Origin: Ulota crispa
Lineage: Eukaryota > Streptophyta > Bryopsida > Orthotrichales > Orthotrichaceae
Direction of reading: 5' to 3'
NCBI GenBank assembly: GCA_963920765.1
Contig: OY987242.1
Coordinates: 11,806,789-11,870,788, forward strand
DNA length: 64,000 nt
Positions within the stretch are counted from its first letter, which is position 1. Each line of letters starts with the position of its first letter. A program made the translations under genes and the position numbers. The notes beneath the pieces are model-generated. The model was not told where the DNA came from, did not search any database, and saw nothing but the letters and a program-made list of their open reading frames with translations. Positions 7,951 to 61,435 of the stretch are shown one piece after another.

Positions 7951-8862
7951 TTAACCCTTTAAGGACCACGCGACCATATTTTGGTCGCTGGGAGTGGTTT
8001 TTGGCATGTAGGTTGAAATTGCTCAATAATTTGGAATTTGGTCTTGAAGTATGCATGTGATCACAAGAATTTTACTTCCATCTGAACAAATAACAATGCA
8101 ATTGGGTATGTGAGTTGATAAATAATGGTGTTTATATGGCATGGCTTCAAAATACGTATCCAATTTTTGTCAAAGATGGGTCAAAGCAACAACACAATAC
8201 ATCAAGTATGCAAGATGAATGTCAAATTTCAATTGCACAATTCTAAAAAAATTCAAATTGCTTAAGAAATATGCTTGTATTTTTCATATACGGTAGTAGT
8301 ATAATTGTAGTATTTGAAGATCTACTGAAATGCTATTGTTATTTTGGCTTTAAAATTTGTCATCCTACATTTAAGGCCAATTCTTGATTGTTTTTACCAA
8401 TTGGATTTTTGAGAATAATTATCAAATTTCTTGTAGAACCATTTTAGGGTAGCAAAGATAGTGGGTTTTTGATCCTTTTTGTCCACTTAGCTACACCTTG
8501 TGATTGCTATTTTTGTTTATTTTGTGTGAAACTAGTCTTGTTGGAAAGGTGGGAAACCCTGCTTTCTAGAAATGTAAGGCTCTTCTCAATCAAAGCTTGC
8601 ATGAAAGGTTAACATTAAAAACTGAACAAGAATGAAACACAATAGATTTTCCCCATATGGCTCATTCAATCATTATAATATTTCACCTCCAACAGTAGAT
8701 CTAGCTGAAATTTTGGTGCTTTTCAATAAACAAGGTGTACTTCCCATTTATACGACTGGATTATTGAAAATGGGTCCATATTTGAATAAATTCCAAATCT
8801 AAGCTTACAGGCCCTGTTTTCAGTGGATTCTATGAAAATGGGTGTGGTCGTTAAAGGGTTAA
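7951..8862. mobile_element. TTAA-flanked TIR element, 912 bp (long subfamily, copy 1)
   Basis: The left end is TTAACCCTTTAAGGACCAC and the right end GTGGTCGTTAAAGGGTTAA. Just inside the left end is the palindrome GCGACCATATTTTGGTCGC. There is no long ORF. A second copy lies in opposite orientation at 27355-28279 and matches over nearly the whole length. Confidence 0.85.
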
Positions 8863-9266
8863 CTATCTCCCATCCATTGCTAACCTTGATTTTTTCATTT
8901 CATATATCATTTTATTCACGTGTAGGAAGTTTCCTACATAATTCAGATTTTTCACAAAAAACATATAACACTGCCATTTCACAAAACAACATTAATCATC
9001 ATTGTTGCATGATCTTGTGCTAAACTTCTTGCATCCAGCATAACAAAACTATCCGCACAGGCAAAATTCAAGTCTTCTCATGAGAAACTTAAATGATTTG
9101 TGCACTCAGCAAGGTACATCAGAGTGTAAACATGAGTTCTCTTGCTTGAGAATACAAAGAAAGATAATTTGTGTTAATCTTGAAATTGCTTTAAGATATC
9201 AAAAACATTCTGTTGTTAGAACACTCAAAGGATAAAAGAAATGTAGCTCTAAAATGTACAAAGTTT

Positions 9267-9500
9267 TTAACCCTTAAAGGACTAAGTGTGCCGCTACAAC
9301 CAATACAATACGGGATATTTTTCTTGTATTTGGAATGGATCCACACCTTTACTACATTTGAGATCAACAAAAAAGTTGGAGAATAGATCAAAGCAATTCT
9401 AGTGAGCTACTTGAGATCCCAAATTAAAAAATTTTACAGGTAGCAAATACTGATTATACGGCAGCGTATATACCATGCCCTATGGTCCTTTAAGGGTTAA
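9267..9500. mobile_element. TTAA-flanked MITE, 234-bp subfamily, copy 1
   Basis: Ends are TTAACCCTTAAAGGACTAAG and GGTCCTTTAAGGGTTAA. It shares TTGGAATGGATCCACA and GAGATCCCAAATTAAAA with the copies at 43283 and 46533. Non-coding. Confidence 0.85.
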
Positions 9501-10505
9501 ACAAGCTATTGTTCAAATCTTCATAGTTTTTCTAGTGCTTGATGCCTAAGGTTTGAACATCCATTATTTGGATCTATCAAGATTTTATTTTGTTGTTTTC
9601 TGAATTTTAATTTGGAAGGCATTATGCTTAATTTGGGTTCTTTTCATACTACTTTAATTTAAAATCTGATTAAATTTATTTATGGGAAAGATTAGACATT
9701 CAAGCCTATTTAATATACCCTCTTTTTATATTGCATCATTTGTTCTTTCACCAAAATCATAAGCAAATGGGTATATATTTCAATCATAATTATTTTGTAT
9801 AATCTCATTATTTCTCTATTATTTCATAAGAAATATACAGATTAGTGATGATAAGGTAATTATATAACAAAGTTCTAAGTCACCTTTTTTGCTCTTGCAA
9901 TCTCATTTTTTAAGAACTAATGTTACATTTACGTGAAACACAATATTATCTTAAATTCACAATTCACAATGCTAGAAAATATACAAAATTACAAAAAATT
10001 GAACTCTTATGCTAATGCATTAAAGAAGTAATTATTTGTATGACCTAAAAGAAAAATTTAAAGAAAAGAGGTTGCCAAAACCATTTAATCATAATATTTA
10101 ATGGAAAAATCTCATGGCATGTTGGCATGTAAAAGCCGCATATGTGACATTTTTGCAAATCCAAGATAAATCAATCAAAGTGACAAGGTAAATTACATTA
10201 TAATTTATGGAGAACAATGCTCATATTAGTATTACACACAAATATAAACAATATCTTTTTGTGCATGTGAATAACCATATCCATAAGTTACAAAATTGAA
10301 TTTGAACAACTCAATAGATCACATTCAAATGTGACACATCTCACAAAAACAATGTTTTAAAGTACATTGATAATTAAATTATACGTCTAAGATACTACAA
10401 TAAAAATCCATTGCACTCTACTTAGGCTAAACGCTAAAGCACAAACCAGACATGTAGGCCTACTATTGAATACCTACAAACTAATGACCTTACTTTTGTC
10501 CTTTA
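9501..10505. other. Intergenic, very AT-rich, nothing recognised
   Basis: No ORF of note and no clear repeat structure. Confidence 0.5.
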
Positions 10506-11432
10506 TTAACCCCTAAACGACCATGGCCTTTATTTTGTCAAAAGATACTCAAAACTATCATCTCTATGGTAAAGAGTAAATAAGTTTGAAAATCAAGCAT
10601 TTTGCATATCTGACTATAGGATCTTGTGCTAAACTACTATAAGAATGTGTCATACAAGACTCAAGAACTTTGACCACACATATTGGAAAATATATGCATT
10701 TAAAGTGCAAAAGAAAACTTTTTTTGCACCTTGCTTGATTAGATCTTTTAACTTTGAACATTTTTAACTTAAAATTTTTGTACCACAGAGTTTGGAATTC
10801 TATTTTTGCATGGTGGGAAGTTGAGTTGGGAATCTTGGGAAAATATTTAAAAAAAGAATACCTATTTTTCATTCTTAAAAAAACATTAGGTTGATAGAAG
10901 GTATGAGATTGAACAAAAACTTAAATTGCTAATAACCTTGCAATGGAATTGAAACGCAATAATCCCAATGGTGAGATTGTTCTAGAAAGAAAATTTCACC
11001 CATTCCAATAATTTTTTTTGAAAAAATGTTAAACTTGCATTCAAAAATGAAGTTTATAAGTTATTTTTGTAAGAAGATGCTTGAGTTGCCCAAAAAACAA
11101 GATTGTCCATAACTTTCTCATAACTAGTCTAAATGGAATGAATCAAAGCTTCAGATGTGGATAAAGATATAATCAATAAGAAAAAAGAATTAAAAAAAAT
11201 TCAAGTTTTTATAAGAATTTTTTTTGCTGCCCCTAGTCCCCAAATTTGTACTTATTTGGGCATAACTTTTGCTCCTTGGCATCAATTGGAATTAAAATTA
11301 TACTCCCCAAAAGCTATTGTGTTTTTATATATTCAAAAAAAATTCAAAAAATTAGGACAAAAATTGAGGCCGTAGGTACCTACCCAAAATCCCATTTGTC
11401 CCCCGTAGGGACAATGGTCCTTTAGGGGTTAA
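10506..11432. mobile_element. TTAA-flanked TIR element, 927 bp
   Basis: Begins TTAACCCCTAAACGACCA and ends GGTCCTTTAGGGGTTAA. The right-end subterminal palindrome is TTGTCCCCCGTAGGGACAA. The right half resembles the left end of the 1.0-1.25-kb subfamily in inverted orientation. The left interior is different. Confidence 0.75.
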
Positions 11433-11531
11433 AACCAATGGAGTTTAGTCCATATATTTTGGACCTAAGCATAAGCACAATTCATTTCATAGTGGAATCC
11501 ATTATATATAGTAAGCAAAATGTCAATTTTG

Positions 11532-12789
11532 TTAACCCCTACAGGACCACTGTCCTTTTGGGGGATAAATGGGATTTTGGGCGTCTACCTTTAATTAAGC
11601 TGTTTTGTGTGATTTTTTGAAACTTTTATTGGAGGTGGGGAATTTAGAGATTTACGCAGGCATCTAAATTTTTCTTCATTTTGACATTTGACAAAGAAGT
11701 TATGCAAGGATTTAATAAAATTTGGGGAGGATTGCTTGTACGGGTAGCCCAAAAAACTTCTTTAGAATTCACAATTTTTTTAAAGAAAATTTTGAAATTG
11801 GTCTTTAGATTTTTTTTTTTACGTGCAAAGCTTTGAATCATTCAATTTCAATCAATGACATGAAAATTATGAGGATTTTTTGTTTGCAGGTAGTTATGGA
11901 TTCTTTACTCAAAAACAAACTTTGAAGTCTTTTATTTTACTCAATTTTCATTATTTCGGAAAAATAACAAAATGAAAGGAAGTAGATTGTATATTAAACA
12001 TTATAGCCATTGGGATTTGCATCTTTCCATTTCAATAATTAAATTCTTAACAATTCAGTGTTTTGACTCATTCTCTACTTCTTCTTACTACTTTCTTCCC
12101 ATGTGTTGTATAAGGTAGGAACATCCATCCTCGTGAGGGTCCCCATAACCATCACCTCTCAAATCTTGGAAAATATGTGGAAGCAAATAGATGTATTGAC
12201 AAGGATGTACAACATGTGAACATGAAATGGCTTAGTGTTGGATATGGGTGCAATGGCAATTTGTTGTTTAAATAATACATAGTTTATTCTCATGGTATCC
12301 AAATTATACATTCAAAAGTGCAAACTCATCATTTTTTTGTTGCTAATAGGATCCTATAATTTGCTAGATGTTTATTAATTATCATCATGTTCAAAACCCT
12401 TAAACTCACGCTTATAGGTGTTCCTACCTTAGTTCCAATTGATTTGAAAATTCTCTGGCATATACCTAACTTGATCTCCTATATGGTAAATTAAAAGCAC
12501 AACTTTGGATAGAGCAATTTTTTTCATGTAAGAGTGGTCAAAGGCTTTTGAAATTAACTGACAGTAGGGAAAACAAACTTTTCCCTTTACTTCAAATGTA
12601 AATATCTCCCTTCTCTCCATCTAGATTCTAGTATGACCTAATTACTTTTCCACAAGTACCTCTTCTAGTCTAAGGCAAGATCTCACAATCAGATTTCCAA
12701 AAAAAAATGGACCTTCTTATTCATCCTCTAAAAGTAGCAATTTTCAAGGCTTTTGGCAAAAAAAAAGGGCTTGGTCCTTTAGGGGTTAA
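11532..12789. mobile_element. TTAA-flanked TIR element, 1.26 kb (X subfamily, copy 1)
   Basis: Starts TTAACCCCTACAGGACCA and ends GGTCCTTTAGGGGTTAA. It shares GAAACTTTTATTG near the left end and the AATATCTCNCTTCTCTNCAT region near the right end with copies at 38621, 44970, 59030 and 60489. It has no intact ORF. Confidence 0.8.
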
Positions 12790-13847: not shown

Positions 13848-14113
13848 AACACCATATTTGTTAATTTGGGAAAAACGGTACATTTAGGAATTTCAAAGTT
13901 TGAGGTGAAGATTTTAGGTGATCACCTAAACCGAGCTCAGTGTTTTTTTTTTGTACATGTGTCCTCACCTGAGAGGAGGAATTTGCGAGGGAAAAAAACT
14001 TAGTGGCTCAGACTGAATTTGATACCTTCAAATCTGGTTTAAGGTAACTTTTTGGGTTTAAGAGGGAGTACAAAGTGGGACACTTGTTTTCCCAAATTAA
14101 CAAATATGGTGTT
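13848..14113. mobile_element. AACACCATATT-family MITE, 266 bp
   Basis: TIRs AACACCATATTTGTTAATTT and its complement are flanked by the 4-bp repeat TAAT (13844-13847, 14114-14117). The core CTCACCTGAGAGGAGGAATT is present. Confidence 0.85.
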
Positions 14114-14228
14114 TAATATACAATAGGAAAGTCATACAAGGTAGAGACACTTCTAATGTACCAAGTCTACAAGTCTAGGCCCAATAAATGTTAAGAGAGA
14201 CCATTTTTAAGGGCATTGTGGAGGGTTC

Positions 14229-14485
14229 AACGTCATATTCATTAATTTTGAAAAAGCAAAGGTACCATTTTGTACTCCACCTCAATCCAAAATAGTCACC
14301 TCAAACCATATTCAAAAGTATCAAATTCAATCTGAGCCACTCAGATTTTTCCCCTCACAAATTCCTCCTCTCAGGTGAGGGCATGTGTACCAAAGGGGCT
14401 TGATTTGGGGTGATCACCCCAATTTTCCCAAATTTTCAAAAGTCCCAAAATGACCGTTTTGACCCAAATTAATGAATATGACGTT
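14229..14485. mobile_element. AACGTCATATT-subtype MITE, 257 bp (inverted)
   Basis: TIRs AACGTCATATTCATTAAT and complement are flanked by GTTC on both sides (14225-14228, 14486-14489). The family core is on the minus strand. A GGGGTGATCACCCC palindrome lies inside. Confidence 0.85.
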
Positions 14486-14620
14486 GTTCATATTTTTTCT
14501 AATGTTACATGAAAAAAAGCCTAAAATTTATGTCAATTAGTGATTTTGTTATCATATAATTAGTCACAATCATAATGCAACTCACACCTGTCATAAATTA
14601 TGACCAATACTTCTTTTAGA

Positions 14621-15035
14621 ACACTAGAAGAAAAACTTGTTCTAACGTCATATTTGTTAATTTGGGTCAAAACGATCATTTTGGGACTTTTGAAAATTTG
14701 GGAAAATTGGGGTGATCACCCCAAACCAAGCCCCTTTGGTACACGTATCCTCACTTGAGAGGAGGAATTTGTGAGGGAAAAAATCTTAGTGGCTCAGACT
14801 GAATTTGATACTTTCAAATCTGGTTTGAGATGACTATTTTGGATTGAGGTGGAGTACAAAATGGTACCTTTGTTTTTCCCAAATTTACAAAAAAGACATT
14901 TTCTAAATAACTGGTTCACAAGAATCACAATGATTGCAAATGTCCTAGACAACTATAAATAAGTCATTGTACAGTTGTTTAGGATTTGCACTTGTTGTGA
15001 ACTAGTCATTTAGGACATGTTTTTCTTCTAGTAGA
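14621..15035. mobile_element. CACTAGAAG-end foldback MITE interrupted by another MITE
   Basis: The left arm CACTAGAAGAAAAAC (from 14622) and the right arm GTTTTTCTTCTAGTAG (ending about 15034) are inverted. Once the nested element 14644-14900 is removed, the left arm runs on into CTAAATAACTGGTTCACAA, which mirrors the right arm TTGTGAACTAGTCATTTAG. Confidence 0.65.
14644..14900. mobile_element. AACGTCATATT-subtype MITE, 257 bp, nested
   Basis: It is flanked by TTCT (14640-14643 and 14901-14904). TIRs are AACGTCATATTTGTTAATTT and a diverged complement. It is closely similar to 14229-14485 but in the opposite orientation. Confidence 0.8.
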
Positions 15036-20912: not shown

Positions 20913-23454
20913 CTACTCTTGAAAGTCCCACAACACCATCCGGGGACTCGGAACCTCGTATTCATGAAGGCGCATCACAGTGGGCGCTCCAGCCAAAGCA
21001 GTATTGAAAGGCGAAAGGTTAACAGTATTGGGGCTAATCGAAGTCGAATATTGTCCGGCATACCCAGACAAAGCATGCTGGGTGGTAATGTCTAGAATGG
21101 ACCCTGTGGCACCAGTCGCTATTGGCGACGTCGTTAACGGCGCACTGAAGCTCCTGTATCCTCCGAAACTCTCTTGCAAGGAACTGGGCTGATTGAAGCC
21201 GAGATTAATTCTGATATCCAACTTGCTAGCCCCTGCAGATGTCTGGGGTCGTGACGACGCATCCGCTCCACCTTCCTGCATATACGTAGCCTCAGCCGCA
21301 TGGCCAGTATGACTCAACTGGTTCTGCACTTCGGAACTGAATCTGCTCAGGGGCAACGTCGACTGGGTGTTCAGAAACTCTTGATGCTCCTGTGGAAGTG
21401 CACTTCTCGATGCTTGCAGCCAACGAGTATAGTCGGTCCTTGGTGGGATTAGTGGTCTCACCGGGCTCAATTGTCGAGGTCTGCTCGGGATGGGAGAATT
21501 GTTGCGAAACTCTTTGCATGCTTTCTCGAAATCTGAGCAGTTGCGGAAATAGTACTCGGATCCCGACCCTGACGCAGCAGGTGGAAGTTGATGCAGTGAA
21601 GCGCCTGATGTCATAGAATTGCAGCCAGGTTGCTCTTCTTGAAAAGCTGAAATGGGACTAGCGCCTTCGGCGTACCTGGCCATGTGTGCTTCGTTCATCT
21701 GAGCGGAAGAGAGGTATGCGATCCGACCGCAAGCGCTCTCCACAACGGTTCCTGCTGACCTGGGGTGAATCATGGTGTCGACGTTCTCATGATGAGTGCT
21801 GGCAGGCTGGAACCTGTGGTGGTTCGAGTTTTCCACTGCAGTAGCCGGCGGGCTGTTGGACCGTCGCGAGAGCGCCTCCTCGGTGCTGCTGCTCTCGTCC
21901 ATGCTGTGGGAGCCAGAATTGTTGGAGCTCTTTTGGCCTCGATCCCTCGCCAAGTGAAGCTCGGGCAACCCGGATGCGTTGTCCGTGAGTTGGAGCTGGT
22001 CGTGGTGGTGGAGCATGCTGAGAGATTGGTTCATGAATTGCGAGACTAGTGCAGGGTTGTTTTTGCTGCACTCTCGAACCGCTTTGCTCACGAGGGTATC
22101 TCGAAAGCATCTCCGCGCTGCTTCCTCTGCCACCTGCAGAAACTCATAAGCGTATATATGCACTGTCAGGAATCACTCTAAGAATCGACAAGACTAGCAA
22201 CTAAGCACTGCATCGTTCTGCTAGTACGACAACGACGAGATCTAGAGAAGCAAGAAAAATGCTCGGTATCGATAAACGAAACTGCAGCGACTAAGGATCT
22301 TCGTTACTTGACTACCTGATTTCCTCCCGTTGACTGCGCCATTGTTCCTGCCAGATCCCTGAGTAAGTCCGCAATAGGCTTGTGCGTGACAGGATCAATG
22401 CCCATGTCACACAGCTTCTTCTTCAGCCGAGTGTTCCAGTGGTTCTTGATGTCGTTATCGGTTCGTCCCGACATTTGTGCAGCGATGAGTGACCATCTGC
22501 CAAGTGGGATCATCTGGGAGTAAGACTTCTTCCCTTCTCACATACACCAATTCTATGAACTCCAACAGAAGGCATCACATCAAGTTTAACCGGATATATG
22601 TTTTCCATCAAAATTTTAAACACTCGATGGCATCAAAGCGATTGTTCACTAAACCTCCAGGGTCCAGATGTTTAAACACAGTACTTATTAACCTAAATTT
22701 AGGAGCAGTGCAAAATTTGGCTAGACTACCTGCTTCCATGAGCTGCATGCAACTTCACAATGAGATCCTCTTCCTCCAAGGTGAAACTACCATGCCGAAT
22801 ATCTGGCCGCAAATAGTTGGTCCATCGCAACCGGCAGCTCTTCCCACATCTCTGCAGGCCTGCAGAAGCACGAACAGCTTAGTATTCGGAGCCGCATGCG
22901 GTTGGATCTTATGTTGTACTTCCACGCTCAGACGTTCGTAACCAAGAAATTACTGATAATGACCACACATGCAGACTTCGTTCTCTGAAAGTCATGAACG
23001 TATGATCAATGAAGCGTATCATTGAGATGATTAGCGACAAGGTAATGTAGGAAGACCGAGTTCCCAGATGCCTTTGCTGAAACCCGGATTGCGTAACCAT
23101 TGCGATGAGCTTTAACAATAGGTTTATACACAAACATATGGGTTTCATTTTGCTCTTTGTTCCAACAAGCTCGCCAGTTGCAGTGCTTCCGTTGTGACGC
23201 GATGACCTTGTGCGCCCTTACCCAGATTCAGCGCAACAAGTAGCTAGAATACTCCGCGGAAGAACTAGTGACGCAGTTCTCAGTGAGAATTACACAGAGA
23301 CAACCTGCATCTCATTAATAATACCTGCTTTCTTTCCAACACTGCGCCAGTGCCCAGTCCCATACGTTTCCACATACTTGCGCAGTTTCTCATCTTCCTC
23401 AGCCGCCCAGGCTCCTTTCCGCACGTCTTCATTGGACTTGGACAGTCGTGTCAT
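20913..23454 (-). CDS. R2R3-MYB transcription factor
   Basis: Four exons on the minus strand, 23454-23325 (130 nt), 22859-22730 (130 nt), 22496-22316 (181 nt) and 22133-20913 (1221 nt), join in phase to give 553 residues; all introns are GT-AG. The start ATG at 23454 has an in-frame TAA six codons upstream. The R2 repeat spans about residues 13-64 ([39 protein letters not shown]) and the R3 repeat about 66-116 ([39 protein letters not shown]). [10 protein letters not shown] follows R3, a motif found in many R2R3 subgroups. The 130-bp second exon and both domain introns sit where they do in typical plant R2R3-MYBs. R3 begins with a hydrophobic residue in place of the first Trp, as is normal. 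The long C-terminus is rich in Ser, His, Gln and Pro. The N-terminus ([14 protein letters not shown]) lacks the common GRxPCC start. It is a nuclear DNA-binding regulator; the subgroup is not assigned. Confidence 0.93.
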
Positions 23455-43282: not shown

Positions 43283-43516
43283 TTAACCCTTAAACGACTA
43301 AGAGGCCCTTTGCAACCAATACAATATGAGGTATTTTTCTTGTATTTGGAATGGATCCACACCTCTATTACATTTGGGACCAACAAAGAAGTTGGAGAAT
43401 ATATCAATGTTGTTCTAGTGGGCTACTTGAGATCCCAAATTAAAATTTCTTACCGGTAGCAAATGACAATTATAAGTCAGAGTATATACTATGCCCTATG
43501 GTTATTCAAGGGTTAA
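43283..43516. mobile_element. TTAA-flanked MITE, 234-bp subfamily, copy 2
   Basis: Ends TTAACCCTTAAACGACTAAG and GGTTATTCAAGGGTTAA. It has the same length as the copy at 9267 and shares TTGGAATGGATCCACA. Confidence 0.85.
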
Positions 43517-44969: not shown

Positions 44970-46211
44970 TTAACCCCTAAAGGCCCAATTGTCTCCTTAG
45001 GGACAAATGAAATTTGGGCATGTATCTATAGTTGAACTGTTTTGTGTAATTTTTTGAAACTTTTATTGAAGGTGGAGAATTCCAAGACCTACATTGGCAT
45101 CTAGTTTTTTCATCATTCCAACATTTGATGAAGAATTTATCAAGAATTTTTTGAAACTAGGTGAGAAGAGGCAATTTGAGCAAGGGCTCTCCTCTATAAG
45201 TGGGTGTTGACTCCAAAGAGGATCAGCCCTTGTGGGTACAAGGTGTGGACACTTGGGTAAAGGGGAGTGGAGTGAAAGGTGCCCATCTTGGGGGACTCCC
45301 TAACCTCCATTCCCTTTGCCCCTTGTAAAATTTGGTACTTTAATTTTTTGAACAGTTTGAGTTTTTGCTTTTTTATTAAATTTTTCCCAAAATGTAGTAG
45401 GATAAGAATCCTTGGTTTTTATTGTTTTAGTCAATGTGATTTGAATTTTTGAATTTTACATAAATCTTCCAATTGTGCCTCATGTATTTGCAAATTTCAT
45501 GATCTTCAAGCAATCAAAGATTTTTTGAAGTATGTTATATACCTTCAACTGATTTGAAAATTTTGTAACATATGCCTAATGTGGTCTTCTAAGTGGAGAA
45601 ACTAAACCTAAACTTTGTGTGGAGCATTTGCTTGGAGAGTGGTAAAAGGCTTTTGAAATTTTTGGGCAACATGGAAGAAAACTTTTTTTGTCGTTTCAGA
45701 TGTCAATATCTTGCTCCTCTACATCTAGAATGAATTGATACTTTTGCCACAAGACCTCCCATAATCTAGGGGAATATCCTAAGGTTGGATTTTCCCAAAA
45801 AAACTATTTTTCCTACATTTTTTACTCATTCACCAAAAATGGTAGTCTTCACAAACTTTCACAAAAAAAAGCATTAGGAGGGATTTGGACCTCCAAAGAG
45901 GCCCCTTCCCCCAAATCCATGGGAGCTTTGGAAACACCTTCCACATGGGTAGTGTGTTGTAGGCCAGGCTGGCACTACGTCTACCACGTTAGCTTGTATA
46001 ATTTTTTATATTTTATTTTTTGAAAAAAAAAATTCAAAAATTTTCTTATTTTTTTCTAAGATTTTTTTTAAAATTTTATTTTATTTTATTTTTTTGAATT
46101 AATTTTTTTGACGACCAGCAAGGGTTGGTTCCCAACATTGGAAATAGAAAAACTCACAGCCCCTTTGGGGGTCCAAATCCCTTGTAATGGGCTTGGGCCT
46201 GTAGGGGTTAA
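44970..46211. mobile_element. TTAA-flanked TIR element, 1.24 kb (X subfamily, copy 3)
   Basis: Ends TTAACCCCTAAAGGCCCAAT and GGGCCTGTAGGGGTTAA. The left palindrome TTGTCTCCTTAGGGACAA is present. It carries extra internal sequence compared with 38621-39579. Confidence 0.8.
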
Positions 46212-46532: not shown

Positions 46533-46757
46533 TTAACCCCTAAAGGATTGAGCGTGCCAGTGCAACTAGTACAATATAAGGTATTTTTCCTGTATATGGA
46601 ATGGATCCACATCTCTAATACATTTGAGATCAACAAAGAAGTTGAAGAATAGATCAAAGCAAATCTAGTGAGCTATTCAAGATCCCAAATTAAAATTTCT
46701 TACTGGTAACAAATACCAAGTATACAGCAGCAAATACATTATGCCCTATGGTCCTTG
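46533..46757. mobile_element. TTAA-flanked MITE, 234-bp subfamily, copy 3 (right end lost)
   Basis: The left end TTAACCCCTAAAGGATTGAG and the body with TATGGAATGGATCCACA match the other two copies. The right end stops at TATGGTCCTTGG without GGGTTAA. Confidence 0.75.
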
Positions 46758-46759
46758 GT

Positions 46760-48590
46760 TACTCAAAATAAGATAATTTTATCGAGATAGAGATTTTCAT
46801 CCAAAAAGTATGTTTTGATTTTTTAATTCACAAGATTGAATATTCATTTTTTTGTGAAACAAAGCTTGCGGTAGTCCAATTTTCAAGTAGTTTGAAAATT
46901 TAAAGGGATATTTTAAAGTGAAATAAATTTCATAGCCCTCAGTTCAGGCCCTCCATTGAGACCCTCCTTTTAGGCAATCAATGGTAAACAACTTGTTACA
47001 ATAAAGCTTGATTCTCACCTAAACTTAGCGGTTACAGAGAAGCGGTTTTGGGAGGGTTGAGAGAGTGGGTGTTCCCACTGGCGGAGAGTTTTAGTGCTGA
47101 GCCTAGTTTTCTGGCAGTTTGGCAGCAATTTAAAAGCTGTAATTGAGAAAAGAGGAAGATAAGTATCCTAAAACAAAGGGATTGCATGCATACTTTTCCC
47201 AACAATAAATCTAGAGGAAATTGTACATTTGAGGGGATTTCGGAGTTTCATGAGGGGTTTTTAGTAGTGGCAGCTGGGGGGTCCTTTACAGAAGATTGTA
47301 GTAAAAAATAGCCTCTGCCTTTACTTCTTGTAACTTCTTGTGACTAGGGCAGACGCGGCTCCTGCGTGAGGCGGCTGCTTCATCAGACATAAGTACAGAT
47401 CACTCAAGCATTCTTCTACAGCAAACTTTGGCATTGCGGTACTAATCAAGTCAACATTGTTTTGGTTTATCAGAGCAAAGGGGCTGAGCTAATCAGGTAC
47501 GTTGCTTCACTCTAGTGTTTGGTTTCATTTCAAAACTTACTACATGCTTTGGTTAGGCTGTGTAGTATTTTAATTGCAGTTTTGGTCCACATGAAAACAT
47601 GCATTGCTGAAGTGACATAGATCTGAGCAAGACATACTGCAATGTTCTCCACATTTTGCATTGGCAGTATTATCATGAATCCAGAGAGAAGGGTACATCA
47701 CTGTCATGCATGCTCTGATCTTGTTCTAGATGTCATTGTGACTAGGCCCCTAGAGGACAAAGACAATGGAGAACCACAGTCCCTCAAACTTTTACAATTC
47801 CCCAATGCGGCCCACTGCATCGCCGACACATCCTCTAGGGATGCCCCTCAATGGTGAGCTTCCCCTTCTAGCCATGTCATACATTTGAAGCACAATAGCT
47901 TGATAAAAGATGTTCATTTGGGAAAGGGTCATGATTGGTAAACTTTATTTCCATGTGCATTCTAGTACAATTCAAGTGTATTCACATAGAAAAATTGCAA
48001 TCGATCCTCTCTTCCATGGACATTCAAAGGGAAATGGTCATCCTAGTTGAGGGCTATTTCTCTTGTCACTTTGAAGCTCTCAAAGTGATGCAGTACTCAC
48101 AAATGACTGCATTCCTTTCTTGCATGAGCAACTTCTCTCCTTCCATTCATGTTGTACTTTCCTTGCCTTTGCAACTCTTCTACTTCTATTCATGTTGTTC
48201 CTTCTTGAGAGGCGGCCCTGCAAAAATAAAAACACCCCTCCGATGGCAAAATGAGATGCATTTTTCATTAAGTACCTTCATCAGTTGTAGTTTAGAGCGT
48301 TACCTTTCCTAACTACCGATTGTGATGTAAGCTCTCGTCTGGTCTAGTTCCTTTCATCAAAGGTCATGCGTGTTGTTGTAGTGGTAGCATACATCCCACT
48401 TTAGTTGCCATGGCATGTATTTATAGTCACTATTGCGTGTGTGTATTTTTTCAGCATGCATTCCCCTTACGGCTGTAGGATTTGGCCGACCTCCTCCAAT
48501 GGCAAGGAGCCAGCCTATGTACATGCGCGTAGCTCTGATGGCACCTTGACTTGCTCACTTTGAGGCAACCAGCCCCATCGCGCATGTACG
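46760..48590. other. Flank of the Harbinger-derived block, no gene recognised
   Basis: Short ORFs at 47642-48312 have no supporting features. The left end of the Harbinger element was not found here. Confidence 0.35.
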
Positions 48591-48591
48591 C

Positions 48592-49545
48592 ATGGTGATC
48601 CCCAACAGCACTGTACTTGCTACAACCTCCCTTGCTAGCACACCAACATCCACAAGACCCACCCTTGCATCCACGGCCACACCACTGTGTATCAATGACA
48701 CCAACAAACGACCCCGGAAAGATAGATGCCTGAACTGGACGCACATGGAGGTGCTCGCGCTTGTAGCAGCAAAGCGGGAGCAATTCATTCTCGAATTGGA
48801 GGCTGTGGATGGTTGTGACCTGATGACGCTAGAGCCAACAAAGTGGCTGCGCATTTCCAATGACGCCATGCGAGCAAACTTCTCCACTGTCACACAAGAC
48901 GGCCCTTCTTGCAAGGCCAAGTGGAACACTATTCTACCCAAATACAAGAGGATATCAGATTATTTACATCAGATCGAGATAAATGCTCTAGATTTTTGGG
49001 ACTTGACAATAGCACAAAGGAAGGACAAAGGGTTGCCTAAGCATTTTGCTCAAGATGTTTTTGCAGCCATCGATGATTGGTATGGCACTAGGCCCCAAAT
49101 TTGACCACCACATGTCAGTGACCTGCTCTTGCCAGTTGATTCTAACCTACGCGCAAAATAATAGGCTAGGGATGAGAATGCTGGGTATGAGGACACTGAC
49201 ATTCCATTAGATATGTCCAGCAATGACACTGATGGAGGTAGTCATCAAAGCACCTCCCCGTTGACACCTCCAGGACTTATCTCACCTCCACCTCTAGACA
49301 ATGCTACGTCCACCCATACTATTGTGCAACGCTCGTCCATGTCAGCGAGGACACTGTTTGTTCGGGTTGATGTTGCTCTTCCACCTGGAGTCACTCCACA
49401 CTACATTAGCTCATCTGGTACATCTTCTTACTCTGTTGGAGGACGCACAAGAAATACTAGTGTGAAGCGCAAGAATGTTTTAGGTCACAGTTTGATAGCA
49501 AACGCTTCAAGGGCAAACGCAGAGACTTTGTTTAACAACACATGA
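48592..49545 (+). pseudogene. Myb/SANT-like DNA-binding ORF of a PIF/Harbinger transposon (decayed)
   Basis: A 170-codon ORF starts at ATG 48592 and holds a trihelix/Myb-SANT-like domain (NWTHMEVLALVAAKREQF, PTKWLRISNDAMRANFS, CKAKWNTILPKYKRISDYL, then DDWYGTRPQI). It stops at a TGA at 49102-49104. The frame then continues recognisably (PPHVSDLLLPVDSN), hits a double stop near 49160, and reopens at 49213-49545 with a Ser/Thr/Pro-rich tail. In Harbinger elements this protein binds the transposon and helps bring in the nuclease. It faces the broken nuclease ORF at 50393-51762. The stops fit decay, not a second gene. Confidence 0.75.
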
Positions 49546-50392
49546 CTTTCTTAAGAGAAAAAGACCAACAACTTTATGAGAACGCAATGAGAGTTAACAA
49601 ACTCATTGAAATGGCTATTCAAAAATAGGGGAACATAGTGGGCTGCCTCTCTGAGCTATCACACGTGCTGGGAGAGTGCTTGGGGTATAGGAAGAGCCCC
49701 GCTACAAGGAGTGCCCTACCTTGCGCAGAAGATGAGGATACCTACTGGATTCCTGATGGACCCCGTTGACCACACTACACTAACCCGTACCAACTACCGC
49801 AACTGTCAGGAGAATCGGGTCAAGGGACTTGCAGGATACGTGGACCGCCTTGATGGTGCATCGACGCAAGTGAATCAAGCACCAAGGTGCGACTCGGTGT
49901 GTACAAAACAGCTGCCTTCATCAGAAGACAACGTGCCAATAGCAATTGAAGTCTACGGTACTTCTGTGCCTCCCACTACTACTTCAAAGCTATAGAGTCT
50001 TGGCTCCATGCAACTCACAGATATGTAAAAAGACAGTGACGTGAGGTACTGATGTTGTCACCCCCGGTCCCCCCCCTTTTTGAGAGTGTCACTGCATTGA
50101 AAGCCAAAGCACCATTTGGGTGCCTTTATGTACTAGATTTTTCATATTGGGTACATATTTGGCATGAAGTTTTGTATTTGTCTATTGAAATCCTTTTTAT
50201 TGAACTCAGACTTTTGGTACAATTGATACAGAAGAGTACAATGGTATATGACTTGTTTTTTCAATCGGGAATGAAATTGCTGCAGTGAAGGGAGTTGCCA
50301 ATGATATAGTATCATGGATGCATGCCCAGCAATAGTTAATTGAAACTACTAAATGGAAAAAACAAAGTCAAGAATCATTACCTTAAAAGCTA

Positions 50393-51762
50393 CTAATGAT
50401 GATACGGCCTTTGAGAGTTGAGCTGTAGGCTAAGGAGTTGCCGTTTCTCGATTGCAACTGCGGTTCCGGCGGTTCCAGGGGCAGCATCCATACCTTCTAG
50501 AGCTGTTGCCGCATTGTCATTGCCTACTCCATTGTCCACCTCCTCTCCCCATAGGACTTCAGTGCGTAAGATGCCATACAAATTTTGGACATCATCCTCA
50601 GGTTGCTCTAAGAGCATACTGTGCAAGATCGCGCAACAGAGGACTACGTCTGGTAAAAATGCCACATCTAAATCCGATTTCAGTAGTAACTCTCGAAATG
50701 TTTGCTTCAAGATTCCAAACGCATTTTTGACCACGCAGCGCCCCTTGCAAAGTCTCTTGTTAAAAAGAGACTCAATCAAAGACAACTGCACATTCTCGCA
50801 ATGAAGAACCATTAGCTACGGGAGAAGAGGGTAATCCAAGTCACCGAGGAGGTAGGGAGTGAAACCATCCAATGGAAGTTGGTTGCTAAATAAGTTACTC
50901 CACGTTGCCAAGTCATACAGAGATGAATGTCTCAACACTCTGGAGTTGTTGATAGAGCCGGGCATCTCCAAGTACAAGTTGAGGAACCGCTTATCATAGT
51001 CTACCACTGCCTGACAATTGAGCATGTAACCACTTGACTTGAAGTAATAGTAGTCAGCTGGGACGTGTTGTGGCTTTGCAATGGCCACATGTGTCCTATC
51101 AATGGCACCTACTACGCCAGGTAAACCACACAAGTTAGCAAACTTGTGTTCTATCAATTGTAACCGCTCACCTGTAGGCCAAGTAATATGATGTTGGAGG
51201 GAAATATTAATCGCATGCACAACATCTTGGATGATTGCGCAAACAATGCTTTTGCTAATTGCAAACATTTCTAGAAACATATGCAAAACGACACTCTGTT
51301 TGTCAATTTGAACGAAGTACATGCAACCCGAATGACATCTAAGATTGCTAATCGGTACTTCATGTTCATCTTGTGAATCTCAGGAGACAGCAACCTTGAA
51401 AGGGAGAAGACTATTTGCTTTGGCATTTTGAATAGTTCTATCCACCTGGTGTTGTCGTATACCGTCATGAGAAAATGCGAGAACTAGGTGGTGGATCTTG
51501 GTTTTACCCAATACCCTAGGTCATTGTTCAGTACAAACGGGAAATTGCAACAGCGGAAGGAGTGCAACCCTGCGTGCATAGATGCCAAAGAATCGTCAAC
51601 TGGCTCAACGAGTCTCTCCATGATTTTGTCAAAAGCACCCATGCCCTCTTCCTCCTCAACGTTGGCCAAAAACAGACCAATTTCTTGCTGCACATTCATA
51701 AGTTGAACTAGCATCCAAATTCCCAAGGTCATTGCAAAATACATATTGTAATTCCTGTCCAT
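50393..51762 (-). pseudogene. HARBI1-like DDE nuclease (PIF/Harbinger transposase), inactivated
   Basis: The coding trail runs from a likely start at 51762 (MDRNYNMYFAMTLGIWMLVQ) through YWVKPRSTT, RWIELFKMPK, GVVGAIDRTHVAI, LLGDLDYPLLP and NAFGILKQTFREL. Two in-frame TAG codons sit where Trp is expected, after PRSTT (51485-51487) and after YPLLP (50816-50818). A frameshift lies near 51290-51310, between RVACT and SVVLHMF. The first two catalytic aspartates are present (about 51100 and 50842). The third acidic residue, normally VVENAFG, is Lys (AAA, about 50728). Such nucleases cut and paste the element at TWA sites. This copy cannot make an active enzyme. Terminal repeats of the element were not located. 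Confidence 0.85.
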
Positions 51763-51849
51763 TGCCGAGGCAGTGCCACCCCATTTGTAATTGTCAACAG
51801 AGCTGTGATTCCAAAAAACGCAACACCTGTTAATGTCCACATGAAAATA

Positions 51850-53186
51850 ATCTCACGACAAAAACTCTCAGTGTACTTTTAACCCTAAACCCTATCGCAG
51901 AGGACAGTGTCCAGAATTCTAAACCTTCTCCGCAATGTTGAACATGGAAACAGTCCCTACACCACTCAATGTTTGACCTTCTTTCATGAAATCCCACATT
52001 CATACAATTCTGTGCCCACATTGCACTCATGAAAAGCAGAATGGGAAATCACAATAGGAGCAACGCTAACCTTTTTTCAAAGGCAAAGTAGGTGGGGGTG
52101 CCTAGTCTAGCAAAGCATGGATTGCGAGCCAATAAAAATCGCTACTCACAAAAAATGAAGCGGAGTCTCCAATTCTTTTCCAACAAAGAATCAACGAGTC
52201 CAATTCTGAACCCTAAGACCGCCGTAAGGTTCCCCCCCCAACAAATGCAAAACCTGCTACTTACAACTCCTCTGCGCACTTCAATTGAGAGAGAAAAAAG
52301 TTTTCACAAATGGTCACTTAGAATGCAAGCATGATGCAGCTTCCCAACCCAACAAATTGTACTTTGCCTTTGTGGTGGCACAGGCTGAATGAATCATCAA
52401 GCATCAGAAAACAAGAGCGCAATTGCAGAAGGAGGGGATTGCAGCGGACAAGAAGAGAAGAAGAAGATGACCACGTTTGCAAAGGAGGCGCATCTCAACT
52501 CAAGAACAGACAAGAAAAAGAAGAAATCACATATGTGAGAGACATTCAGTTCTACTAAAAACCGATGTTAAGTAGGAGCCCTTGAAATTTCAATGATTAC
52601 TTTTGCCTACTTGGCACTTACTAGGGGACTATAACCTACTCCTACTACTGTAGGTGAGAACATGGCAAACTTTATAACCCACCAATATTGATAACCGCTG
52701 CCTTTTGCTTTACCAGACTTGGCACCCTGGTTCTCAGGGAACAGTGTTTGTTCCTAGCGCCAAAGTACGCTTCTCCATATGGCCAAGTCAAAATCAAGCT
52801 TAAGCCACACTTTGAAAAACAATTTGTAATGAAAAGAATGTGGCGCATAGTCATGTGATTCTTGCTTTGCTAGGCAATTTCCACTTGTCTCTTGGAAATT
52901 CTAGATGCGAGGTCCAACAAAGTGCAAAAATTATAAACTTTGGTACAAATACTTTGTTTCAACATATAACACTTCATGTTTATTGGTTATTACCTTTGCC
53001 CTTACATCTAATTTGTTTTGTTGATTTTGAGAGTGAAAAACTAAGGTGGTCCAAAACCAAGGGCCAAGCTTTAACTTTTCACTTACTATACTCATCAAAC
53101 CAATTCTTTTCAAATTTAGATTGAAATTCACCTTGCTATAAGGTAAGTGTTTCCAAAATTGCAAAGGAGATTGAGTGTTGGTTATT
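51850..53186. other. Right flank of the Harbinger-derived block
   Basis: No gene seen. It may contain the untraced end of the element. One telomere-like AACCCTAAACCCTA lies near 51881. Confidence 0.35.
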
Positions 53187-54127
53187 TTAACCCCTAAAGG
53201 ACCAAGTGGCTATTCAACAACTACTTGAGAACTTGGGTAGGTTTATATGGAGTCAATTTTTATTGGGTGTTCTCACTATAGTTACACAAGGTGCAAATAT
53301 GTATCCCTCAAGTGGAAATGTAATTTTTTCCCCAATCATATGCCCAATTCAAAATTTATATTGCCCAAAAAAAATTAGGCAGCCTCTGTAAAATCATATG
53401 TAAAACTCTCACCAACTTTTGAAATTTGGCAAGTATGTAACTAAAAAAATATGGTGTACAATTGACAAAAAAAGAAAAGAAAAAAAGAAAAAAACTCTGA
53501 CATCACATTCTAAAGGGAGTCAGACTTTGTTAACTATGTTCAGGCAGTTTCAAGAAAAAAATCCTCTAAATTCAAGCCTTATTTATCTTGCAATTTATCA
53601 ATCCAAAACTCTTGAAGCTTTTTTTCACACATTCCAAATGTTTGTTCCTAACTTTTTACTATTTGGATTTCAAATAAAAGACTTTATTGCACAAGAAATC
53701 ATGACAGAATGACTAATGTATTGCCAAATCACTAAACCTCCTTGCATTGCAGGGTGATTTAGAATAAGCTAGATTCTATATTTGCATTTAAAAATTTTCA
53801 TGAGTGAACCTAAAAATATATACTTGTGAATGGTCAAAAAGCTCATTTTTATCTAGAGCAAATATTTTACTCTAGGAAGGCTCAAAATTTGCTAACTTTG
53901 TTTTGCAAGTATAAGAAAAAGTTGTTTTTCTCACTTCAAATGTTATAATCTCAATTTGTGTAGTCAATTGGGCTGAATTTTTTTGCTTGCATTAATTTTT
54001 CTGTTTTGCACACTTTTGTACGGAATTGAGAAAAAAAAAATATATTTTCAATTTTGGGCAATCCACTAAAAGTTGGCAGTTTCTGAGATTTTTTCTCAAG
54101 AAACATCCTTGGTCCTTTAGGGGTTAA
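53187..54127. mobile_element. TTAA-flanked TIR element, 941 bp
   Basis: Ends TTAACCCCTAAAGGACCAAG and TTGGTCCTTTAGGGGTTAA are near-perfect inverted repeats of about 19 bp. The interior differs from the X subfamily. Non-coding. Confidence 0.8.
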
Positions 54128-54712: not shown

Positions 54713-55613
54713 ACAACCCCTAAATGCTCAATGTTGTTTTTCTTTTTTTGGAAAGTAAATTTGAAGTTTTTGAATTGTCCTCAATTATTAAACATCAAAA
54801 TAAAATTGTAAGTGTAGAGTTTTGAACTTAATGGCTTCTAAATGGTGCTACCCAAAAAAAATCAAATTGTCCCAGAAATTCTAAGAGATTTGTGATCAAA
54901 TGATGACGAGTATAATCTTTTTTTTTTTGGAGCCGCGTAAAACTTCTAATGCAAATTGGCAACTTTTGGATACAAAACTGGGAAACAATCACTTAGGATG
55001 CTTTAGTGTTTATTGTTGTTATATGAAAACTAATGACCTCCTTTCCAATTCCATGACCACAATTTCACTATTGAGCTTGCAACACAATTGTCAAAGCTCC
55101 ACAACCTAATACAAAGAAATTTTCTCGCTTCAATTGTTGACCAAAAATCATTATGAATGAAAGAAAATTCAAAGGTGAATGAATTCTAATTTCTACAACA
55201 AAGATATTTCAAGTGAAATTGGTCCAAAAGCACTTTCAACTTTTGTTAGATGACAAACTTTTAGTAAAAGGGGCCTTAATGCCCAATGAGTGTCCAAGGA
55301 AAATTTCACTTTTTTCTCTACGTGATGCCCATCTCTTCAATGTGGCAACTTGTCATAGGCTTTGTGACACTATTCACAACACTATTCATGGCACAAAGTG
55401 TATACTTGCAATTTAGCTTCCACCAAAATACATTCAAAATAAGATAAGGAGGGAATTAAAATTAAGAGTTGAAACTAACTTCAACTGACAATTTCTCCAA
55501 AAAAAAAAAAAAAAAAACTTTAAAACAATCAAATCCGTGCCTTCAACCGGGTTTCAATGTTTCCTGTAAATATTTGAACACCAAAATGTGGTGCCATCGG
55601 CATTTGGGGGGAA
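54713..55613. mobile_element. TTAA-type element, Y subfamily, copy 1 (ends decayed)
   Basis: The interior matches 57408-58310 throughout in the same orientation (AAATTGGCAACTTTTGGATA, GACACTATTCACAACACTAT). Its ends have drifted to ACAACCCCTAAATG and CATTTGGGGGGAA. Confidence 0.75.
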
Positions 55614-57407: not shown

Positions 57408-58310
57408 TTAACCCCTAAATGCCCAAGGGTGTTTTTCTCGTTCTCGGAAGGTAGTCTTGAAGTTTTTAAATTGTCCTTGTAAGGTCATTATGAAACATCA
57501 AAATAAAATTGGAAGCATTGAATCTTGAACTTCAAGGTTTCTAGATGGCACTACCCAAAAAGAATCCAAAATGGCCGCGCGGATTTTAAGATATTTGTGA
57601 TTGAATGATGATGAGTATGGAATTTTTGCTTTTTTTTAGCTGCCCAGAGCTTCTAATGTAAATTGGCAACTTTTGGATACAAAATTGGGAGACAACCACT
57701 TAGAATGCTTTAGTTTATTGTTGTTACTTCAAAACCAATGGCCCCTCTTCCAAATCCACAACCACAATTTCACAAATGAGCCTGCAACTCAAATGTCAAA
57801 ATACAATCGTCTAATACAAAGAAATTTTCAACTTCAATTATTGATAAAAAACCATTATGAATGAAAGAAAATTCAATGCCAAAAGGATTCTAATCTCTAT
57901 AACAAAGACATTCCAAGTGAAATTAGTTCAAAAGCACTTTTAGATTTTGTTAGATGTCAAAATTTCAGGTAAAAAGGCCCTTATTGCCCAAGGGAGTGCC
58001 CAAGAGAAATCTTTACCTTTTGCTCGTCTTTTCAATGTGGCAACTTCTCATAGACTCTGTGACACTATTCACAACACTATTCATGACACTATTCACAATG
58101 GAAAATGTATGCTTGTAGTTAACCTTCTACCAAAAACAAATGGAATAAGATATGGAAGAAGTTGAATTTGAACGGCAAAGCTAACTTCAACACGCAACTT
58201 TTCCACAATAAAAACCTCAAAACAAGAAAATTTGTAATTTCAACAAGGTTTCAAAGTTTCCTCAATTTTTTTGGACACCAAATTTGGTGCCTTGGGCATT
58301 TAGGGGTTAA
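57408..58310. mobile_element. TTAA-flanked TIR element, Y subfamily, copy 2 (903 bp)
   Basis: Ends TTAACCCCTAAATGCCCAAG and TTGGGCATTTAGGGGTTAA are almost exact inverted repeats. Homologous to 54713-55613. No ORF of note. Confidence 0.85.
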
Positions 58311-59029
58311 GGCCTTTACATATGAGACAATTGGCCTCCACAATAATCTTATTTTAATTAGTAGTAGATGCCGGTCTTAAGCAAAATGTGGGCTGAAATT
58401 TGAGGAAATTGGCCCCAAGCCGAATTGGCACGGCCCCCATATGTAAAGCGGCCCTATGAACAAACACCCTCCCCTACCGGGCACCCCCCCCCCCATAAAT
58501 CAAGAGGATAGGGTAGGAGAATCCAAAACAAGCCCTAGTAAAGAGATACTCATGTGCTGAATCCTTGAGCGCCCACAAGACATTATAATGTCTCTCAAAA
58601 AGCTAGGTCAACTCAATTTTGACCGATACAATCTCATTGCACATGCGGTGAAACCACTTCCAATCAAATCCAGCATGATGGAGACGCTTTCCACTAACAA
58701 TTCATATGGTCAGATCTTGTGAATCATATTTTTCATCAGTCCACATGGGCACTTTGATTGCACACAAGTGAAGCTTTTTTTGTTTTGACTCTGGGCTCTC
58801 AAGGGTTAATATTAAGGGCCCCTTTATATTATGGCCAAAGATCAAGAGGCTGTCAACTTCCATCCATATGATTGCAAGAAATTAAGAGCTTGGCTTTTTG
58901 ACCTTTTAGTCTTTCATACTAGAGGTCAAAGTTTAAAGTCACTATCATTCTCTAAATTGTCTACATGACAACTCTTTTTCATCCAAAATAATGGTCTCTC
59001 AAAAGAAGTTTGGATCAAGTAAATATGGA
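58311..59029. other. Intergenic with a lone TTAA-type end
   Basis: CTCTCAAGGGTTAA at about 58796-58809 looks like a right terminus without a visible left partner. A C run lies at about 58484. Confidence 0.35.
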
Positions 59030-59589: not shown

Positions 59590-59641
59590 GGCTATAAAAT
59601 AACGTGAATAGCAAGATTTGAAATCAAAATTACCAGCACAT

Positions 59642-60009
59642 TTAACCCTTAAACGCCAAGGAGGACGTTTTTTGTCCTCCGGCTCCAAAAAACAATTTTG
59701 TACTACAAAGAAAAGTTGTTTCTTGTTTTTTGTTTTTTAGAAGTGATCATAAACACATGATCCATCATGGGGGGCAAAAAAACATCTCATTAGATGCAAT
59801 CATCTCTTTAGGTAATCCAAAATGTGAGAAGATTCAAGGATACAGTGTTAGGTCCCAAGTTGCCTTTCTTGCAATTTTCATGACGGCACCATGCACTGTT
59901 GACTTTTGCAGCATTAGGAAATAATTTTATATATTTGGGCACTTTCTAAAATGTAGATAGTAATGTAGCCAAGCTGGTCACAATGACCAGCCCGATGTTT
60001 AAGGATTAA
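59642..60009. mobile_element. TTAA-flanked element, Z subfamily, 368 bp
   Basis: Left end TTAACCCTTAAACGCCAAGG followed by the hairpin GAGGACGTTTTTTGTCCTC. Right end GATGTTTAAGGATTAA preceded by the hairpin GCTGGTCACAATGACCAGC. A second, inverted copy starts at 60132. Confidence 0.8.
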
Positions 60010-60131
60010 CATTGTTTTTTAGCCACTTGAACCAACCAGGAAATCCAAAATTGGGATTGCTGAAGGGGTGAGCCTATATCTCACTCAAATAAAATCTTGC
60101 AAAAAAGGTAGGAGGTGCCAAAAATATCCTA

Positions 60132-61435
60132 TTAACCCTTAAACGTTGGGCTGGTCACCATGACCAATTTGGCCACAGTTTCACCACAGTATCGTGACAC
60201 TGCACACTTTGTAAGATTTCTCCTTAAAGTTGCAAAAGTCAATAGTGCATGATCCCCTCATGAAAATTACAAGAAGGGTAGTAAGGGACTTAACACTCTA
60301 CCTCTGAATCTTCTCATAATTTGGTTACCTAAAAAGTTGAGTGTATTTGGCAAGGTGATTTTTTACCGTCCATGATGGACTATGTGTTTATGGTCACTTT
60401 TGAAAAAGAATCAGATTTAAATGACTTACATCATGTGCTATAGAGGGTTTTTTTTAAGCCAACGGATGAAAAATGTTTGCCTTGGTGTTTAACTCCAAAA
60501 GGACCAAGCTCTTTTTTTAGTGAAAGTTATTGAAAACTGCCACTTTTGGGGGAATGAGTAGAAAGGTAGGAGAAACAATTATTTTTGCAAATTTAACCAT
60601 AAGATCTTGCCCTAGACTATGGGAGCTACTTGTGGAAACAAAATTAGCTCATTCTAAATGTAGAGGAGTGAAATATTAACATCTGAAGTGAAAAAAATAG
60701 CTTATTTCCCTATTGTCCAAAGTTTTTAGAGGCCTTTGATTGCCCCTAAATCAAAAAAATTGCTCTACACAAAGTCAAGGTTTATTTTTTCCATGTAGAA
60801 GACCAAGTTATGTAAGTGAGGGAGAATTTTCAAATGAATTAGAGGTGTGAATCATACTTTGTAAAATATTGCAATGTCATAAGGTCATGGAATTTGCATA
60901 TATACTAGACAAAATTGGAGGATTTATGTAAAATTCAAAAAATTGAATTACTTTGATCCAAATAGTGAAAACCAAGGAATCTTAGTCTACTACAACTTGG
61001 ATAAAAAAGAAGTCAATAAACAAATTCCCAAAGAGCACAAAAAAGTAAAGCGCCAAAGGCAAAAGGAATGGAGGTATGGGAGTCCCGTACTTGCCCGCAA
61101 ACTAAAAAAATTCACTCATAAATCAAAATTGAATGGTTCAAAGCTCCCCACATATGTATAAACCTAAAGAACCAATTTCAGATTTCTGTTTTGAAAAAAA
61201 GTTATTTTAAAAAAACTTTTTGGTTGCCCAATCTCCCATGTTTTTCAAAAATTCATGCAACTTCTTCAATAATTGTCTGAATGTAGGAAATATTAGATGC
61301 CCATGCAAATATTTGAATTCCCCATCTTCAATAGAAGTTTCAAGAAATCACGCAAAGTAGTTTAGCCATAGGTACATGCTTGACATCCCATTTGTCTCTC
61401 GAAGGGCCAATGGTCCTTTAGGGGTTAAGTGTTAA
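60132..61435. mobile_element. Z-subfamily element, inverted, split by a nested TTAA element
   Basis: Starts TTAACCCTTAAACGTTGGGC with the hairpin GCTGGTCACCATGACCA. Its right end is broken into CCTTGGTGTTTAA (ending 60492) and GTGTTAA (61429-61435). Together these rebuild the expected terminus CCTTGGCGTTTAAGGGTTAA with two changes. Confidence 0.8.
60489..61428. mobile_element. X-subfamily element, inverted, nested (940 bp)
   Basis: Flanked by TTAA on both sides (60489-60492, 61425-61428). The left end is TTAACTCCAAAAGGACCAAG and the right end GGTCCTTTAGGGGTTAA. It is homologous to 38621-39579 in reverse orientation. Confidence 0.85.

Follow-up and report, generated by a model that had tools for sequence, protein, structure and literature searches.

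Which transposons gave rise to the small inverted-repeat elements found in one stretch of the genome of the moss Ulota crispa? The stretch, referred to below as the window, comprises 64,000 bp of contig OY987242.1 (assembly GCA_963920765.1, positions 11,806,789 to 11,870,788, forward strand) and carries numerous elements with similar inverted ends, beginning CCC and flanked by TTAA, for which an initial annotation had offered piggyBac, Kolobok or Sola3 as possible sources. We conclude that they are very probably non-autonomous derivatives of moss cut-and-paste transposons of the piggyBac superfamily, a group known chiefly from animals. The evidence comes from termini shared with larger elements, from transposase domains lying inside elements with these ends and, for one element, from a single TTAA at the site before insertion.

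Ends and Subfamilies of the Window Elements

The inverted ends extend over about 17–20 bp and carry the sequence CCCCTAAAGGACC or relatives of it, with TTAA on both sides of the paired window elements. When TTAA was required, 25 end-like 17-mers were found in the window at up to three mismatches, compared with an average of 0.0 for 20 first-order Markov sequences, and 21 at up to two mismatches, again compared with 0.0. Fourteen paired elements of 57–1,258 bp occupy 10,412 of the 64,000 bases, and BLAST searches with them yielded four extra copies or fragments, beginning at positions 46533, 54715, 59058 and 60132. The total of 18 agrees with the count of about 18 given in the initial annotation, as does the presence of several sequence subfamilies, exemplified by the pairs 7951/27355 (93.6% identity), 9267/43283 (84.6%) and 38621/60489 (78.7%). 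Window copies are 74–94% similar within subfamilies, and we therefore take most of them, on this sequence criterion, to be probably old.

The ends are by no means confined to the window. In the 274.8 Mb genome the exact end TTAACCCYTAAAGGACC occurs 9,236 times (4,623 + 4,613), a computed density of about one per 30 kb, while the reversed control gave 0 + 0. The shorter pattern CCCYTAAAGGACC is directly preceded by TTAA at 9,236 of its 10,851 sites (85%); the reversed control of this pattern numbered 5.

Insertion at TTAA

The target site was examined using the 512-bp element at 29262–29773, which lies inside a repeat. Its flanks were joined with a single TTAA and searched against the genome, yielding 40 rows from the best 40 of 396 candidates; two were the element's own flanks and 38 crossed the site. 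In the first 20 of these 38 alignments, all of paralogous sites, no gap occurred within 25 bases of the site; it read TTAA in 14 and was one substitution away in six (TTCA twice, TTGA twice, CTAA once and TCAA once). Two further uninterrupted copies, one in the window at 62691–62887 and the other in locus L055, also read TTAA. Since the paralogous sites are ungapped and carry a single TTAA or a one-base variant of it, the element was inserted into one TTAA, leaving one on each side. The initial annotation had named a target other than TTAA at orthologous empty sites as a refuting result; such a result did not appear at the paralogous sites of this element, which show TTAA. An earlier trial with 24 joined sites had produced junction-spanning matches for three query names, two of which represent the same element in overlapping loci.

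piggyBac Transposases in the Genome

A search of the genome with the profile PF13843 (DDE_Tnp_1_7, the piggyBac core) gave 120 rows, covering the best 116 of 528 candidates scored, with a best E value of 1.3e-73, and no match was obtained in any of 14 control genomes. Thirty of the 116 scored candidates were fetched with 1.5-kb flanks and, later, four places were added from rows lacking internal stops (L065–L068).

The protein evidence is consistent with this assignment. A 476-residue open reading frame (ORF) of locus L066 matches piggyBac (6x67) with an E value of 4.1e-20, and a profile built from this ORF and nine relatives matches piggyBat (9c0f) at 2.1e-67 and piggyBac (6x67) at 7.9e-54, the 9c0f alignment taking in the C-terminal cysteine-rich region. 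A cysteine-rich tail is also present in the translations of L013, L014 and L023, and the Pfam family zf-Tnp_2 was detected, below cut-off only, in P0027 and P0032. The aspartate motifs VTVDE, TCDN and GVDxxDQ occur in the translated copies, in columns conserved in A1; the first two align with 6x67 and the third with 9c0f, L066 having N at the third site. Together these motifs represent the catalytic aspartate triad of piggyBac. L013 encodes 519 residues with one stop and retains DE, DN and GVDVADQ motifs together with the cysteine-rich tail. A search with L013 found 143 proteins; the 120 that were listed include two under the name piggyBac transposable element-derived protein 4-like, one from Mya arenaria and one from Lytechinus pictus. 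Upstream of the L066 transposase (L066 1429–2490) there is a 354-residue ORF that contains repeats of KRKYTRK-like motifs and matches no Pfam family.

In a tree of 33 loci of this genome and 13 relatives, strongly supported groups comprise lineage A (L012, L026, L027, L035, L039), lineage B (L013, L023), lineage C (L014, L066, L067, L028 and L037, with the environmental sequence P0035 nested within it) and a large lineage D of 18 loci; L017, L024 and L025 are placed with A and B. A wider tree also supports separate groups and does not unite the 16 moss rows in one clade; six changes are counted, five of them forced by starred branches. Nearly all other rows in that tree lack a host name and may include mosses. 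The branching pattern shows old diversity, not necessarily repeated arrival, and separate invasions are not claimed because most of the other rows lack host names.

Full-Length Elements of Lineage A

No end within four mismatches was found in the 30 loci with 1.5-kb flanks; for lineage A this is because the right end sits just past the flank. Four loci were chosen for extension as those, of the 30, which strongly matched window-element interiors at the edge downstream of the transposase. All four carry the right end GGTCCTTTAGGGGTTAA (with 0, 1, 2 and 0 mismatches) 1,632–1,766 bp behind the domain, and in three of them the exact left end is present upstream. L012 has its right end 1,940 bp behind the transposase. 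The three full elements, each bounded by TTAA and with lengths from which nested insertions were not subtracted, are as follows:

C8:11097229–11105483: full lineage A element, 8,255 bp
C5:24506226–24515054: full lineage A element, 8,829 bp
C9:12440860–12449389, minus strand: full lineage A element, 8,530 bp

Their termini and their transposase domains are both mutually alignable. All three contain an ORF, located between 1.2 and 2.4 kb inward of the left end, that encodes a DFLDSQ motif; this ORF may be either a transposase exon or a separate gene. Repeats of about 400 bases were also observed in two full elements (L041 461–2339 and L042 74–1943), two copies lying about 1.45 kb apart in each; they match one another in both orientations, while the sequence between the copies shows no match between the elements.

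For other loci, right flanks were fetched for 16, of which 13 could be joined and three were dropped for lack of overlap. GGGTTAA occurs in nine of the 13 joined flanks, the first one 1.37–2.47 kb behind the domain, compared with about 0.2 expected per flank by our own arithmetic, and is absent from the other four. The ends of further lineages differ after the CCC, and right ends are of type TTAACCCTTTAGCGACC in L066, with no left end in the fetched stretch, and of type TTAACCCCTGAGCGCCC in L068. A lone right end of the same type as that of L068, TTAACCCTTGAGAGCCC, is located in the window at 58793–58809 and is near to the ends found behind lineage D transposases. The only end in L067 belongs to a whole copy of the 53187-type element. 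L065 (C1:1178500–1184000) holds a piggyBac-like transposase that has diverged from the others; the 5.5 kb around it are richer in GC and contain neither a TTAACCC nor a GGGTTAA end. It may represent a relic or else a gene that has been domesticated. A candidate pair of ends 3.4 kb apart on C1 (L040) was rejected, as it contained several ends, one pair of which bounds a 0.93-kb element.

Derivation of the Window Elements

When compared with the three full elements, window elements 11532, 38621, 44970 and 60489 show similarity at both termini and element 29262 at the left one only, the matches extending over 141–203 bp at 72–87% on the left and 169–543 bp at 70–76% on the right. Element 38621 consists of about 200 bp of the left terminus and about 540 bp of the right terminus of lineage A, and 29262 has the left terminus at each of its ends. 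Shorter matches to lineage A termini were found for 10506, 40082 and 53187. For lineage B, where a right end alone was seen at transposase loci, the left 549–584 bp of element 57408 match stretches behind L013 (L052: 554 bp at 83%, the stretch ending at TTAA) and behind L023 (L060: 588 bp at 77%). Altogether, nine of the 18 elements derive from lineage A and two from lineage B, and for seven no parent was found. The elements, with positions in the window, are:

7951–8862: 0.91-kb element with TTAACCCTTTAAGGACC-type ends, lineage C-like in the ends only; 93.6% identical to the 27355 copy; parent not found
9267–9500: 234-bp miniature inverted-repeat transposable element (MITE); 84.6% identical to the 43283 copy; parent not found
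10506–11432: 0.93-kb element, lineage A; 98 bp at 82% to the E5 left end and 51 bp at 78% to the E8 right end
11532–12789: 1.26-kb lineage A derivative with both termini; left 200 bp at 77% and right 367 bp at 73% to full element E5
27355–28279: 0.93-kb element, inverted sister of the 7951 copy (93.6%); parent not found
29262–29773: 512-bp fold-back carrying the E5 left end twice (147 + 180 bp at 87%); used in the empty-site test
38621–39579: 0.96-kb deletion derivative of lineage A; matches E5 at 80.9% (199 bp) and 75.1% (543 bp)
40082–40138: 57-bp minimal element with imperfect ends, lineage A left end; 84% over 51 bp to E5
43283–43516: 234-bp MITE, copy 2; 84.6% to the 9267 copy; parent not found
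44970–46211: 1.24-kb lineage A derivative matching both termini
46533–46766: 234-bp MITE, copy 3, right end degraded and end coordinate inferred from the family length; 83% over 224 bp to the 9267 copy; parent not found
53187–54127: 0.94-kb element with two exact ends; 66-bp match of one terminus to the lineage A right end
54715–55610: decayed second copy of the 57408 subfamily, lineage B; 75.6% over 922 bp
57408–58310: 0.90-kb lineage B derivative; left 549 bp match the stretch ending at TTAA behind L013
59058–59587: fragment carrying only the right terminus of lineage A; matches the 38621 copy at 74.8% (547 bp)
59642–60009: 368-bp element, right end degraded; parent not found
60132–60410: decayed inverted copy of the 59642 element; 74% over 282 bp; parent not found
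60489–61428: 0.94-kb lineage A deletion derivative, inverted relative of 38621; matches E5 at 75.8% (528 bp) and 83.8% (179 bp)

The assignment of the 53187 element, which depends on 66 bp at one terminus, is the weakest of the nine. Pieces resembling the interior of the 44970 element and the 59642 element were observed behind loci L029 and L030 (L063 441–745 and L064 191–876), and these may be either neighbours or parts of parents.

The annotation of the elements as a single family is thus to be replaced by derivation from at least two piggyBac lineages, with seven of the 18 still lacking a parent. Among the three superfamilies that it had offered, piggyBac is established for lineages A and B, where PF13843 domains lie inside or beside elements with these ends, and the larger relatives that were found carry piggyBac and not mariner or Harbinger transposases. 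Its expectation of an autonomous partner elsewhere held for the partner type, large piggyBac elements being present in the same genome; an intact autonomous copy was not among the loci examined.

Proposed Mechanism and Alternative Explanations

In our reading, large parents, such as the 8.26–8.83 kb elements of lineage A, carry the transposase, and copies that lost their interiors have kept some hundreds of bases from both termini or else one terminus in inverted duplicate. By analogy with established piggyBac biology, the transposase of the large element would bind the short ends and subterminal sequence, excise the element and insert it at TTAA, which is duplicated on insertion. Deleted copies that retained the binding ends could then be mobilised in trans into TTAA sites. 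Binding, mobilisation in trans, cut-and-paste chemistry and seamless excision are all inferred from that biology.

Several results weigh against a piggyBac origin or complicate it. The genomic transposase candidates are mostly decayed, with just 10 of the 120 PF13843 rows free of stops inside the match. None of the loci examined combined both ends with an open transposase, and hence no intact autonomous copy was present among them. At the fourth extended locus, on C6, there is no lineage A left end, and a left end of lineage D type with five mismatches lies upstream. The lineage A elements, at 8.26–8.83 kb, depart from the usual piggyBac size of about 2–3.5 kb with one ORF, although nested insertions perhaps account for part of the extra length. 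The other element testable for an empty site, in L002, has a paralogous site reading CCAA rather than TTAA, which may be a mutation. An AlphaFold model of the L066 ORF had a mean pLDDT (predicted local distance difference test score) of 47, too poor for use. Finally, the seven elements without a parent have only about 18 bp in common with any transposase-linked end tested.

This last point gives some weight to a mixed origin, in which piggyBac produced the lineage A and B derivatives while the 234-bp, 7951 and 59642 subfamilies acquired similar ends by convergence or capture. We consider this unlikely, though deserving of attention: the ends of these subfamilies resemble the common end about as closely as do the ends of elements with a proven parent, the internal sequence of old MITEs decays, and loci were fetched for just 30 of the 116 scored transposase candidates and four more places. 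We infer that the seven elements belong to the same superfamily as the others.

Much less probable is that the elements are Kolobok or Sola3 transposons and that the piggyBac copies are bystanders inserted in or near them. Kolobok and Sola3 also use TTAA, such that this target does not by itself discriminate between superfamilies, seven of the 18 elements lack a parent, and whole element copies do neighbour some transposases (a 53187-type copy in L067 and a 234-bp copy in L063). Bystanders would hardly be expected, however, in the same orientation at four lineage A loci, at the near-constant distance from the right end described above (with L012 close to it), nor in three full elements where termini and transposase domains both align; for the seven parentless elements there is no such direct exclusion.

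Mobilisation by PIF/Harbinger transposons is suggested by a relic in the window, where a DDE_Tnp_4 gene in decay and a Myb-like ORF lie at 48553–51379. It can be dismissed as scarcely credible, since around this relic, between 46600 and 53180, no TTAACCC-type end (up to four mismatches) occurs and the empty sites show a 4-bp TTAA rather than the 3-bp target of PIF/Harbinger elements, a known source of plant MITEs (Tourist-type).

A piggyBac origin therefore remains our preferred explanation. Our judgement is evenly divided on a broader proposal, that an old and diverse piggyBac fauna has shaped the genome of a land plant. This fauna would comprise at least three well-supported transposase groups, interleaved with environmental sequences instead of united in one clade, would include oversized 8-kb elements sharing a second coding segment at the 5' side, and would have spawned thousands of TTAA MITEs.

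Other Features of the Window

The decayed PIF/Harbinger element extends over 48553–51852, with a Myb/SANT-like ORF on the plus strand that scores below the Pfam cut-off. Pieces of DDE_Tnp_4 lie on the opposite strand; they occur in two ORFs at 50396–51379 and overturn the earlier statement that the window holds no transposase. The possibility that the relic is bounded by ends of the window type was ruled out by the search between 46600 and 53180 given above, and its own ends were not found: the best candidates, 5.8 kb apart, agree at 12 of 15 bases and are unconvincing.

On the minus strand at 20916–22172 there is a 419-residue ORF, part of a moss gene, several of whose longer relatives carry the Myb DNA-binding domains PF00249 and PF13921. 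Its nearest named relatives belong to Ceratodon purpureus (60% identity) and Physcomitrium patens (55%), others reaching 81%, and on this single protein the host is placed among the mosses, outside the seed-plant frame in which the elements had been discussed. A long inverted repeat at 14229–14900, with 272-base arms that are 89% complementary and a 128-base spacer, overlaps an inverted pair at 13949–14394.

Comparison with Known Systems

piggyBac elements are described as widespread in animals, fungi and protists and as occasional in plant genomes such as red algae, in passages of a 2025 paper (PMC12732532), and passages of two further papers name plants among the hosts without detail (PMC10140906, PMC8086355). 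A plant review counts PiggyBac among the plant transposon superfamilies (PMC10794571). Passages on the fern Ceratopteris richardii include a repeat table with 1,230 PiggyBac copies covering 122,417 bases (PMC6890710), and those on the brown alga Ectocarpus a DNA/PiggyBac row (PMC12477816); they place the superfamily name in a land plant and an alga as annotation rows, and the passages themselves give no element, ends or transposase. Among the matches listed from the open-licence literature, titles and the starts of abstracts contained no description of a moss piggyBac. Among 12 of the 19 matching places in a Niphotrichum paper, the sole occurrence of the term was the word "piggybacking", the main text of a paper on Physcomitrium DNA transposons contains no piggy- word, and the passages of a Fontinalis paper give no transposon breakdown.

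Kolobok and T2-type elements resemble those of the window in forming MITE families, judging from the title and opening abstract lines of PMC6004289, and differ in that the transposase of the moss elements carries PF13843. The PIF/Harbinger (Tourist-type) system occurs in the same window and differs from the window elements in target, ends and transposase.

With small transposons of a moss arising in large part from piggyBac, and with at least half of the window's elements being shrunken copies of large piggyBac transposons, the results could aid the annotation of unclassified moss repeats, they provide a land-plant case for studying the spread of piggyBac, and native TTAA transposons offer leads for moss genetics.

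The closest likeness is to animal piggyBac (6x67/6x68) and piggyBat (9c0f), which have in common with the moss elements the PF13843 core, the D-D-D motifs, a cysteine-rich C-terminus, short inverted ends starting with CCC and duplication of TTAA. According to passages of PMC12732532, intact beetle elements measure 2,074–3,465 bp and CCCT is the commonest end, whereas here the host is a moss and the lineage A elements reach 8.26–8.83 kb with an extra shared 5' ORF segment. The kind of element is thus a known one, and what is unusual is its abundance, the presence of several lineages in a land plant and the 8-kb size.

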